In this document: in pieces, positions 22,406-25,814 of the stretch
Position numbering within the stretch: position 1 is the stretch's first letter
How the letters are laid out: every line of letters begins with the position of its first letter
DNA from: Flavobacteriales bacterium
GTDB lineage: Bacteria > Bacteroidota > Bacteroidia > CAIKAF01
Direction: 5' to 3'
NCBI GenBank assembly: GCA_025451235.1
Contig: JANWKT010000025.1
Span: forward strand, 1-56,200
DNA length: 56,200 nt
Position numbers and translations under genes: made by a program
The notes under the pieces: generated by a model
Databases searched by the model: none
The model's input: only the letters and a program-made list of their open reading frames with translations
Told to the model about the DNA's origin: nothing

Positions 22406-22553
22406 ACAGAAGATTTCTGTAAAAATGGCAGGTATACCTGTCAGAATTGAAGCGCTTTTATTTTTTCCCTGACATAATTATAGAATTTACACTCTATTTT
22501 GGCATCGGCATAGGTATTGTTGAAGGATATATAGTTTTAAAAAATGAATGATT

Positions 22554-24455
22554 ATGGGAAAAATTATAGGTATAGACTTAGGAACTACCAACTCCTGCGT
22601 AGCGGTAATGGAAGGTAATCAGCCTGTGGTAATAGCCAATAGTGAGGGAACACGTACAACTCCATCCATTGTAGCATTTTTGGATAATGGGGAACGTAAA
22701 ATAGGTGATCCTGCCAAACGCCAGGCGATTGCCAATCCTAAAAAAACGGTTTATTCCATTAAGCGATTCATGGGTGCCAGTTATGGTGAGTCTGAAAAAG
22801 AAGCGCAGCGTGTACCCTATGAGGTAGTAAGAGGTGAAAACAATACCCCTAGAGTAAAAATAGATGATAGATTATATTCTCCACAGGAGATCTCGGCCAT
22901 GATCCTTCAGAAAATGAAGCAAACTGCCGAAGATTACCTGGGAACAACAGTAAACGAAGCGGTCATCACGGTACCTGCTTACTTTAACGATGCACAACGC
23001 CAGGCTACAAAAGAAGCCGGTGAAATTGCAGGATTGAATGTAAGAAGGATCATCAATGAGCCTACGGCTGCTGCCCTTGCTTTTGGTCTGGATAAAAAAG
23101 GAAAAGACATGAAAGTGGTGGTATTCGACCTCGGTGGTGGAACACATGACGTATCTGTATTAGAATTAGGTGAAGGTGTGTTTGAAGTAAAATCAACGGA
23201 TGGGGATACCCATTTAGGGGGTGATGATTTCGACCACGTAATCATTGATTGGCTGGCAGATGATTTTAAAGCCCAGGAAGGGGTAGATCTTCGACAAGAC
23301 CCTATCGCCTTACAAAGATTAAAAGAAACGGCTGAGGCGGCTAAAAAAGACCTCAGTACTTCTCAGGAATATCATATTACCTTGTCATATATCACCATGG
23401 TGAACAATGTACCGAAGTTCATTGATAAAAAATTGACCCGGGCAAAATTCGAACAAATGGTGGATGGATTGATCAAACGTGCCATTGAGCCTTGTAAAAC
23501 AGCCTTGAAAAGTGCCGGATACACCGTAGGTGATATTGATGAAGTGATCTTAGTGGGTGGTTCAACAAGGATCCCGGCTGTGCAAAAAGCGGTGGAAGAT
23601 TTCTTTGGAAAAGCACCGAGCAAAGGAGTGAATCCTGATGAAGTAGTAGCCATTGGTGCTGCTATCCAGGGAGGCGTATTGGCCGGTGATGTAAAAGATG
23701 TATTGTTGTTGGATGTAACTCCCCTTTCCTTAGGAATTGAAACCTATGGTGGGATTTTTACCAAACTTATTGATGCGAATACAACGATCCCTTCTAAAAA
23801 ATCGGAAACGTTTTCAACAGCATCTGATAACCAGCCATCGGTTGAGATCCATGTATTACAAGGAGAAAGACCTATGGCAAAAGATAACCGCACCATTGGG
23901 AAATTCCATTTGGCGGATCTGCCTCCGGCACCACGTGGAGTTCCACAAATTGAGGTAACCTTTGATATTGATGCCAATGGAATTATCCATGTATCAGCCA
24001 AAGATAAAGGAACAGGAAAGGAGCAAAAGATCCGTATTGAATCAAGCAGTGGTTTGAGCAAAGAGGAGATCGAAAAAATGAAACGTGATGCAGAAGCAAA
24101 TGCGGAATCGGATAAAAAAGCCAAGGAAACAGTTGAAAAACTGAACCTGGCGGATAACCTCATCTTCCAAACAGAAAAAAGTTTGAAAGAATATGGAGAT
24201 AAAATTCCAGAAGATAAAAAAGCAGAAATTGAAAATGCATTGGTAGCTTTAAAAGAAGCACATAAAAATCAAGACATCCCTGCAGTAGAGGGAGCTATGG
24301 AAAAACTGAATACAGTTTTCCAGGCAGCTTCTAAGGATATGTATGACAATGCAAGTAAAACAGAAAATACGCAATCAACGGATAACAACCAGGAGTCTTC
24401 CAAAAAGGATGGAGATTCAGAAGTAACAGATGTTGATTATGAAGAGGTAAAATAG
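22554..24455 (+). CDS. dnaK: Chaperone protein DnaK (Hsp70)
   Basis: ATP-dependent chaperone. The 633-residue protein starts [15 protein letters not shown]; an ATG two codons upstream (22548) would only add MI. The ATPase domain shows phosphate-binding loops ([25 protein letters not shown]), [14 protein letters not shown] and VGGSTRIP. The linker [13 protein letters not shown] is followed by the substrate domain and an acidic C-terminus ending [12 protein letters not shown], the typical end for this family. It stands alone without grpE or dnaJ and is followed by a strong terminator. Confidence 0.98.
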
Positions 24456-24480: not shown

Positions 24481-24554
24481 CATAGATTGGTTGGTTCAGT
24501 AAAGGTCGTTCGCAAGGGCGGCCTTTATTGTTTGACAGCTGTTTGGAGTGATAG

Positions 24555-24586
24555 AGTGCTTCGCACCTCCGGCTCCCAGCTGGAGC
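24555..24586 (+). repeat. Left direct repeat flanking the GIY-YIG gene
   Basis: A 32-base sequence starting AGTGCTTCGCAC that matches 24939-24970 at 29 of 32 positions. Both copies sit just outside the coding region, one ending 24 bases before the ATG and the other starting six bases after the stop. Confidence 0.7.
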
Positions 24587-24609
24587 ACAAAAAATATTAT
24601 ATTTATTAA

Positions 24610-24933
24610 ATGACAACAAAAGGAGGATTTATATACATCATTACCAATAAAAGAAGAACGGTGTTGTATATTGGATCAACAACAGATATTAAAAGGAGGA
24701 TGTTAGAACATAAATTAGGCTTATATCCTGGTTTTTCAAAAAAATACAACTGCTGTGATCTTTTGTTCTTTGAGTTTTTTCCGGATATAGCAGATGCTGC
24801 TAAAAGAGAAACGCAAATGAAATCATGGAAACGGGAATGGAAATTGGAACTCATTCGAAAAGGCAATCCGAACCTACTGGACCTATCTATGCATTGGTTT
24901 GATGAAAATGGAAATTTGAAGAAAGAGAATTAG
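24610..24933 (+). CDS. Single-domain GIY-YIG nuclease-like protein
   Basis: A 107-residue protein made of a single GIY-YIG domain: FIYIITN in the GIY position, VLYIGSTTD for YIG, Arg in DIKRRMLEHK, and AKRETQMKSWKREWKLELI with the metal-binding Glu. It resembles the YhbQ/UPF0213-type proteins found in several copies in many Bacteroidota. It is bounded by 32-base direct repeats and followed by nested palindromes, which suggests a small mobile or selfish unit. Activity and target are unknown. Confidence 0.88.
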   Translation: MTTKGGFIYIITNKRRTVLYIGSTTDIKRRMLEHKLGLYPGFSKKYNCCDLLFFEFFPDIADAAKRETQMKSWKREWKLELIRKGNPNLLDLSMHWFDENGNLKKEN

Positions 24934-24938
24934 AGCTT

Positions 24939-24970
24939 AGTGCTTCGCACTTCCGGATCCCAGCTGTAGC
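24939..24970 (+). repeat. Right direct repeat flanking the GIY-YIG gene
   Basis: The second copy of the 32-base repeat (29/32 identical to 24555-24586). It runs into the left arm of a larger inverted repeat at 24955. Confidence 0.7.
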
Positions 24971-25069
24971 TGGGAATCATGTATAAAACCATATAGGAGT
25001 TCCAGGCAACTATGTTGCCTGGAACTCCTATATCCCCCAAGAAAAGATTCCCGGCTACAGCCGGGATCC
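24955..25069. repeat. Nested palindromic element beside the GIY-YIG gene
   Basis: The outer arms 24955-24978 and 25046-25069 are reverse complements at 22 of 24 positions. Inside them is a perfect hairpin with 20-base arms (24991-25010 and 25014-25033, core GGAGTTCCAGGCAAC) and the 3-base loop TAT. The 115-base unit has no coding capacity. Confidence 0.75.
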
Positions 25070-25100
25070 AAGGCAATTTGACGGGAAATAAAATAGATAT

Positions 25101-25138
25101 TTATTTGAAAACAACCTCGAACTTCAAACTTCAAATAA
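25101..25138 (-). repeat. TTGAAG-type hairpin overlapping the response regulator stop
   Basis: TTATTTGAA (25101-25109) and TTCAAATAA (25130-25138) form 9-base arms. On the reverse strand the sequence reads TTTGAAGTTTGAAGTTCGAGG, and its first TGA is the stop codon of the LuxR-type regulator. It is probably a transcript-end hairpin related to the repeats at 8678 and 55780. Confidence 0.55.
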
Positions 25139-25814
25139 GCTTCAGCCTATATGCAATCGAAACGATCTCCGCTGCCTTTCGGGTGCCCAGTTTACCCATC
25201 ATGTTTTGCTTATGGGCATCAATGGTACGATGACTAATATTCAATGTTTTTGCAATTTCTTTATCCGAAAATCCATTGGATATATATTCAATGATCTCTT
25301 TTTCCCTTTTGGTTATTTTTATTTTCGGAATACTAGGATCGATTGCTTGTTCGGATGTTTTTTCATTGTTCTTAGGTGCATTTTCGCTTACCAGTAAGGT
25401 ATAGTTCAACGCAGCACGGGGAGAAATAAATTTTTTATTATCCCTTAACGAATCAAACAGTGTATCGTATTCCTTTTGGCTACATCCTTTGGTAATGTAT
25501 GACCAGGCCCCGGCATCCAGCATTTTTTTCACACTGTTCCCATCATCATAAATAGATACAGCTACAACTTTAGTAGAAGGATATTTTTTCATCACGATCC
25601 TGGTAGCTTCATCACCACTCATGACAGGCATTTCAATATCCATTAAAACAATATCAGGCTTAACTTCATCCAATTGATCGATCAGCATTTTTCCATCCGT
25701 AAAGATCCCTGCAAATTCCAGGAAATCGTATTTGCCGACCATTGTTTTCAGCGCTAGTGGAAAAGCGAAATGATCATCCACTATGGCAACTTTTAATTTT
25801 TTGTTTGGTTCCAT
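25131..25814 (-). CDS. NarL/LuxR-type two-component response regulator
   Basis: A 227-residue protein with an N-terminal receiver domain (acidic pair IVDDH, phosphoacceptor Asp59 in VLMDIEMP, conserved Lys in YITKG) and a C-terminal LuxR-type helix-turn-helix (TKREKEIIEYISNGFSDKEIAKTLNISHRTIDAHKQNMMGKL). No histidine kinase lies next to it, so it is an orphan regulator. The upstream 431-base spacer contains 18-base direct repeats (25997-26014, 26018-26035) that could be its own binding sites. The stop codon lies within a repeat. Confidence 0.93.
   Translation of the reverse strand: MEPNKKLKVAIVDDHFAFPLALKTMVGKYDFLEFAGIFTDGKMLIDQLDEVKPDIVLMDIEMPVMSGDEATRIVMKKYPSTKVVAVSIYDDGNSVKKMLDAGAWSYITKGCSQKEYDTLFDSLRDNKKFISPRAALNYTLLVSENAPKNNEKTSEQAIDPSIPKIKITKREKEIIEYISNGFSDKEIAKTLNISHRTIDAHKQNMMGKLGTRKAAEIVSIAYRLKLI

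Follow-up and report, generated by a model that had tools for sequence, protein, structure and literature searches.

The window analysed here, a stretch of 56,200 nucleotides comprising positions 1-56,200 of the forward strand of contig JANWKT010000025.1 from a Flavobacteriales bacterium (assembly GCA_025451235.1), contains at positions 24610-24933 (+) an intact GIY-YIG nuclease gene of 107 codons, recognised by Pfam, alignment and an AlphaFold2 model. It lies between two 32-nt direct repeats (24555-24586 and 24939-24970), which are identical in 29 of 32 positions. An earlier note on this DNA had described such repeats around a GIY-YIG gene, and both the direct-repeat comparison and the match to PF01541 prove this description to be real. 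The placement of the repeats was likewise correct, but the gaps of 24 bases before and 6 bases after the gene were not, since 23 nt separate the upstream repeat from the ATG and 5 nt the stop codon from the downstream repeat. Local alignment of the 150-bp flanks of the gene gives a score of 26, the highest among the 42 open reading frames of the window (next: 16), and 1000 shuffles of the flanks did not exceed 17, so that a chance origin of the repeat can be ruled out. The upstream neighbour is, judged by eye from its translation, dnaK (22548-24455, +), and the downstream neighbour a LuxR-type response regulator (25131-25814, -). In a genome of the same genus (G001), neither the gene nor the repeat is found downstream of dnaK; this region has otherwise diverged from the window and contains a different inverted repeat.

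The 107-residue protein matches the GIY-YIG domain of Pfam (PF01541) with an E-value of 2.9e-17. A partial match to T5orf172 above the cut-off overlaps this domain, and no second Pfam domain was found beside the catalytic one. Residues Y9, Y20, G22, R30, H34, E67 and N86, which we take to be the catalytic residues of the GIY-YIG superfamily, are invariant among 16 aligned sequences. The AlphaFold2 model has a pLDDT of 92.4, and the fold nearest to it in a Foldseek search is that of the UPF0213 protein BH0048 (E 9e-4), whose structure 1zg2 is also the solved structure closest in sequence (E 0.0056). Slx1 and the N-terminal domains of UvrC follow in the fold search with E-values above 0.001. The window's genome possesses five further small GIY-YIG genes as well as two long proteins with a GIY-YIG domain.

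The repeats on both sides of the gene belong to hairpins of the REP type. The upstream REP-like copy (24555-24586, +), identified from the direct repeat and its fold, consists of the outer motif GTGCTTCGCACCTCCGG and a shortened hairpin, and the stretch 24552-24590 has a predicted ssDNA fold of -8.4 kcal/mol (z -2.2). The downstream copy (24939-24970, +) forms the left end of a REP doublet, here a complete one, and extends into a long inverted repeat (24955-25010 and 25014-25069, 80% complementary), with a predicted ssDNA fold of -48.2 kcal/mol (z -11.6) for the 140-nt stretch around it. According to sequence and fold, the complete doublet, spanning 24955-25069, begins with a first REP hairpin (TCCCAGCT..AGCTGGGA; 24955-24979, +; -10.5 kcal/mol and z -4.6 for the 49-nt stretch 24936-24984). 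The inverted repeat additionally defines a central palindrome (24991-25033, unstranded) and a second, inverted REP hairpin (TCCCGGC TACA GCCGGGA, then TCCA; 25046-25070, -; -8.1 kcal/mol and z -3.1 for a 40-nt stretch containing it). Folded alone, both hairpins of the doublet form seven pairs and a loop of four; the second is followed by TCCA and the first, on its outer strand, by TCCGG. For comparison, a CGTC-tagged REP would have a stem of 8-9 bp, a loop of 4-5 nt and a tail that reads CCA. Since the upstream side carries a single shortened hairpin and the downstream side a doublet, the unit is arranged as REP - gene - REP doublet. At the tag position the window hairpins read TGAT and AGAT, and an unpaired CGTC, TGTC or CCTC tag is absent from them. 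This copy of the unit may therefore be in decay, as its tags are degenerate and do not read GTCA.

The hairpin is dispersed in the genome. A 17-nt core, searched with up to two mismatches in the whole genome, was found at nine places, two of them being the window's own copies, while the reversed-pattern control gave one; two of the nine matches (on C16) lie outside hairpins as judged by eye. The question raised by the earlier note, whether copies of the repeat exist at other genomic sites that lack a GIY-YIG gene, can be answered in the affirmative, since six other loci are without such a gene but contain either a REP doublet (L004, L005, L007, L024 and L025, located on C8, C32, C22, C19 and C27) or one palindrome that shares the outer motif (L017, on C17). 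GTCA is carried by the doublets L024 and L025 and is absent from the doublets L004, L005 and L007 and from the palindrome L017. A restriction of the repeat to the one locus in the window is excluded by these copies. The central palindromes of the doublets in the window (24991-25033) and at L004, L005, L024 and L025 are long and near-perfect, and by eye their sequence differs from copy to copy.

A pairing of GIY-YIG genes with REP hairpins is common in related genomes. A protein search (E 0.001) matched 21 of 40 relatives, and when the flanks were read by eye, genome-specific hairpins, often consisting of GTCA followed by a stem, were seen on both sides of many homologues, and none were visible at a few (e.g. 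L041, L042 and L091). For a quantitative comparison we took the best 80 of 546 relatives (L104-L183), of which 78 were counted and two were dropped for short flanks, and used 816 other open reading frames from the same loci as controls. A hairpin was defined by a GTCA foot, a stem of six perfect pairs, a loop of 3-10 nt and a position within 200 bp. Outward hairpins of this kind were present upstream at 49 of the 78 loci (controls: 9/816), downstream at 53 (controls: 19/816) and on both sides at 34, an arrangement not seen at any of the 816 controls. Inward hairpins (upstream 18/78 against 10/816, downstream 28/78 against 17/816) also exceeded the control rate, yet they were rarer than outward ones. 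Among all 256 tetramers GTCA was the top foot at the 78 loci. The CGTC/GTCA tag does not accompany the gene at all of these loci, however, as the strict rule detects no GTCA hairpin in either flank of six of the 78. A motif-free test led to a similar picture, with flanks sharing a repeat (score of at least 20) at 52/78 loci in comparison to 7/216 control open reading frames. The hairpins are packed closely against the gene, the median gap being 24 nt on the ATG side (n=51) and 11 nt on the side of the stop codon (n=54). In the relatives the hairpins are of the CGTC super-family type; in the window, where the tag is degenerate, copies of a dispersed REP hairpin enclose the intact nuclease gene.

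The stems differ within one genome. The four paralogues of G001, which are 56-67% identical to one another, have four different main stems by eye; three of them (L047, L086 and L087) possess GTCA hairpins, with REPs on one side only, again by eye, at L047 and L087. Two 75%-identical paralogues of another genome (G018) have one stem in common. Among 71 distinct REP sequences taken from the listed matches to the pattern GTCANNCYGAANNNNNTTCRGNNTC, complementary bases occupy 193 of the 213 cells at stem positions that the pattern leaves free, and because shuffling gives a mean of 114 and a maximum of 132, it is the pairing and not the sequence that is conserved in REP stems. The upstream neighbour is co-directional with the GIY-YIG gene at 66 of 72 loci, compared to 545 of 746 control open reading frames. 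Among the loci L104-L183, operons that by eye are those of biotin, tryptophan and histidine biosynthesis repeatedly harbour REP-gene units.

The number of REPs and the presence of the gene are associated across genomes. We searched 199 genomes of the family to which the L146 genome belongs for the REP pattern GTCANNCYGAANNNNNTTCRGNNTC, which is present in 81 of them, its reversed control being present in none, and for the GIY-YIG gene (E 1e-10), which is present in 97. The gene occurs in 52 of the 56 genomes with at least three REP copies and in 45 of the 143 with fewer (odds ratio 28, p 3e-16, Spearman 0.61, kinship ignored). When only the 156 genomes of at least 2.5 Mb are considered, it is found in 52/56 REP-rich genomes and 39/100 others. 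The association has exceptions in both directions, as 45 of the 97 gene-bearing genomes have fewer than three copies of the single REP pattern searched, and four genomes with at least three copies miss the gene at E 1e-10. Among the relatives of the window's genome, random samples of 40-80 kb revealed no difference in REP density between eight genomes with and eleven genomes without the gene (p 0.48), which is weak evidence, since many REP types there miss the strict stem rule and one 20-kb stretch of 60 (L334) was fully masked, but does not support the connection between gene and REPs.

The states of the unit could be compared at a single orthologous site. In the genus of the L146 genome (Flagellimonas pelagia), joined flanks that by eye belong to DinB and hisF were matched in 59 of 60 genomes. 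We took 50 loci from the matching genomes and could read 49 junctions, one being without a flank. Among these, 22 are empty (1-21 bp), 15 contain REPs and the gene, five contain REPs without the gene and seven are of other kinds, namely, by eye, three with an SMR-like gene, three with a four-helix-bundle-like gene and one with a single REP. The shortest complete unit, in a junction of 351 bp, has the form CGTCA-hairpin - gene - hairpin-TGACG. On the flank tree the state with REPs and gene changes at least 11 times across well-supported branches, and its clustering does not exceed that obtained with shuffled labels (values as low were obtained in 167 of 500 shuffles). Within one clade (support 100/99), L220 is empty, L244 carries a REP doublet without gene and L245 carries REP - gene - the same doublet, which is the direct-repeat layout of the window; in the same way, L259 has a doublet and L260 the series doublet - gene - doublet. 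Gene and REPs are therefore gained or lost at orthologous sites and gene-free REP pairs exist, with gain and loss being indistinguishable in the comparison of junctions. No target-site duplication is evident by eye at the DinB-hisF junction. The empty junctions of two close relatives (L214 and L215) retain a 16-nt REP-like remnant (CGTCATTCC... and CGCCATTCC...), possibly the scar of a lost unit. The SMR-like and four-helix-bundle-like genes at this site (L237, L239, L247 and L248, L257, L258) are present without REPs and, as they occur in other species, indicate that the junction tolerates varied insertions.

The pairing is not confined to Bacteroidota. A homologue from S. meliloti matches 73 of 190 genomes (E 0.001) in the class to which the L183 genome, an uncultured alphaproteobacterium, belongs. 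At the best 30 of these loci, GTCA is again the top of the 256 possible feet, with outward hairpins upstream at 13, downstream at 17 and on both sides at 10 loci. Counted in any orientation, hairpins occur in 19 of the 30 flanks upstream and equally in 19 of the 30 downstream, compared to 2/111 control windows, and 24 of these best 30 loci have a hairpin on at least one side. A collection of plasmids contained 33 matching records, 13 of which we inspected by eye. REP-type hairpins are present on both sides in 11 of them, from Novosphingobium, Azospirillum, Sinorhizobium meliloti, Neisseria gonorrhoeae, Planktothrix, Aeromonas (with a degenerate tag on one of the two sides), Rhizobium sp. CIAT894, Shinella sp. 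HZN7, Sphingobium, Spirosoma and Sinorhizobium K101 (with a CCTC-type tag and a reading frame that is open beyond the domain). The remaining two, from Photobacterium and R. tumorigenes (CCTC-type), have them on one side. The association of gene and REP thus recurs across phyla. In Azospirillum the GIY-YIG gene with its hairpins sits between sufB and sufC.

As described in sections of the paper by Di Nocera, De Gregorio and Rocco (2013, PMC3733652), REPs are divided into a GTAG and a CGTC super-family. The latter is characterized there by a stem of 8-9 bp, a loop of 4-5 nt, a short tail and the tags CGTC, TGTC or CCTC, its hairpins are often paired, and it includes dRS3 of Neisseria and RPE-4/6 of Rickettsia; the hosts given are Proteobacteria, Chlorobi, Bacteroidetes, Spirochaetes and Thermotogae. 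This type accounts for many of the hairpins next to GIY-YIG genes, the copies in the window differing by their degenerate tag, and the gene adjoins hairpins in four genera named in those sections (Neisseria, Sinorhizobium, Azospirillum and Novosphingobium). The same source states that CGTC REPs "apparently lack a dedicated transposase" and names no gene that mobilises them, whereas here a GIY-YIG gene accompanies them. The term GIY-YIG does not occur in the main text of PMC3733652. One table in the available part of PMC9465073 names a RAYT and a GIY-YIG gene with no link drawn between them, and in that of PMC6006769 CGTC is mentioned only where the 2013 paper is cited. Among the papers listed in searches of the open-licence PMC literature, none appeared, judging by the listings, to link GIY-YIG to REPs.

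Free-standing GIY-YIG homing endonucleases consist of a GIY-YIG catalytic domain and are known for occupied and empty alleles at one site. The catalytic domain is shared by the protein in the window, and occupied and empty alleles of one site occur at the DinB-hisF junction in the relatives. In contrast, the protein comprises only about 107 residues with no further Pfam domain, and its target would be a multi-copy hairpin repeat and not one gene. The earlier note had proposed a minimal selfish cassette that moves by recombination or homing at this repeat. Its core is supported by the coming and going of the unit at one junction, where empty, REP-only and REP-gene-REP states occur and where a doublet without gene (L244) is paired with the same doublet plus gene (L245), but the frame was too small; the repeat is a REP hairpin, the association is widespread, and a REP/REPtron system is a more natural setting than an ordinary homing endonuclease with one site. 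With the REPtrons formed by GTAG REPs and RAYTs, and with REPINs, the cassette has in common that one small nuclease gene lies between hairpins on which its product may act and that there are many gene-free hairpin pairs. It differs from them in the enzyme, a GIY-YIG nuclease in place of a Y1 HUH transposase, and in the foot, GTCA in place of GTAG. The cassette appears to work like a REPtron but is not a RAYT REPtron, and it is probably a REPtron-like mobile unit in which a small GIY-YIG nuclease takes the place of the transposase.

The repeated occurrence of this pairing in bacteria that are far apart makes the GIY-YIG family the best candidate for the machinery that spreads these REPs, an abundant class of bacterial repeats, and, on the grounds of sequence comparison, the REP-housed, homing-like nuclease appears to be the best candidate for the missing enzyme of CGTC REPs. 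We envisage that the nuclease would recognise the hairpin of its cognate REP and nick or cut at the tagged foot of the REP while the hairpin is extruded or single-stranded. Repair from a REP-gene-REP copy elsewhere, with the REP sequence serving as homology, could then install the gene in the cut REP, and the outcome would be a gene between directly repeated REPs, as in the window and at L245. Recombination between the direct repeats might delete the gene again and leave a REP or a REP doublet (L244, L259), and gene-free REPs and REP doublets may spread as non-autonomous passengers of the nuclease. We lean slightly towards an even broader view, in which small GIY-YIG nucleases mobilise the whole CGTC super-family, from Bacteroidota and Proteobacteria to Cyanobacteria, by a hairpin-directed hydrolytic nuclease and repair, and in which a sister branch that targets tRNA genes leaves hairpin-bearing tRNA copies.

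The main rival to mobilisation by the nuclease is parasitic homing, in which a homing endonuclease lands in REPs as safe repeated sites, the REPs being spread by something else. The direct-repeat layout of the window, L244/L245 and L259/L260 requires only movement of the gene between REPs, and many genomes have the gene together with few copies of the REP pattern. However, the number of REPs tracks the gene across 199 genomes, the REPs lie tight against the gene, preferentially in outward orientation, and the paralogues of one genome have different stems, so that we regard parasitic homing as unlikely. It is less likely still that the GIY-YIG gene is mere cargo and the REPs are moved by a Y1 transposase (RAYT/IS200-type) or another transposase located elsewhere. 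RAYTs are thought to mobilise the GTAG class, according to PMC3733652, and since most relatives have Y1 domains (31 of 40, with five in the window's genome), absence of a RAYT cannot be used as an argument against such a mover. Against it stand one genome (G024) with GIY-YIG genes within REP arrays (L032 and L051) and no Y1 match at E 1e-3, the presence of a single gene family between the repeats in several phyla, and the statement in PMC3733652 that a tyrosine transposase gene with CGTC repeats on its flanks was not encountered by Di Nocera et al.

The similarity of the fold to Slx1, which we take to be a branched-DNA nuclease, suggests a further explanation, namely that a host enzyme was domesticated to trim REP hairpins, in the way that Slx1 acts on branched DNA, and is kept near its substrate. 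Slx1 is among the Foldseek neighbours with E-values of 0.009 and above. With these E-values in mind, its presence among the nearest folds also speaks for mobilisation of REPs by the nuclease. Yet the rapid change of state at one site, the several copies per genome and the copies with stop codons are more in keeping with a selfish unit than with a housekeeping function, and we consider domestication very improbable. Mobilisation of REPs by the nuclease, the reading that we prefer, concerns one of only two REP super-families, and its mover is left open in PMC3733652. A nuclease of about 100 residues that tracks CGTC REPs offers a single protein to test. If hairpin-directed cutting and repair were true, they would represent repeat mobility without a transposase, and the enzymes would be compact structure-specific nucleases with many differing natural targets.

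Small GIY-YIG genes are also found beside tRNA genes. At eight of 50 loci scanned, an intact tRNA gene lies next to such a gene, and at five of them (tRNAs for Asp, Met, Val, Asn and Ala) a second, broken copy of that tRNA comes after the gene, with none of 200 shuffles reaching the score. The broken copy at L052 is weak (3/200 shuffles), none was seen at L099, and L012 is no test of this layout, because there the gene precedes the tRNA at a contig edge. By eye, a hairpin substitutes part of the anticodon arm at L011, L014 and L092 and part of the T arm at L093. The tRNA layout resembles the REP scheme, a tRNA taking the role of the structured target. The series of intact tRNA, GIY-YIG gene and broken tRNA copy is present in the window's genome and its relatives (L011, L014, L092, L093 and L100). 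At L045, a small GIY-YIG gene begins approximately 110 bp past a tmRNA gene, another neighbour that encodes a structured RNA.
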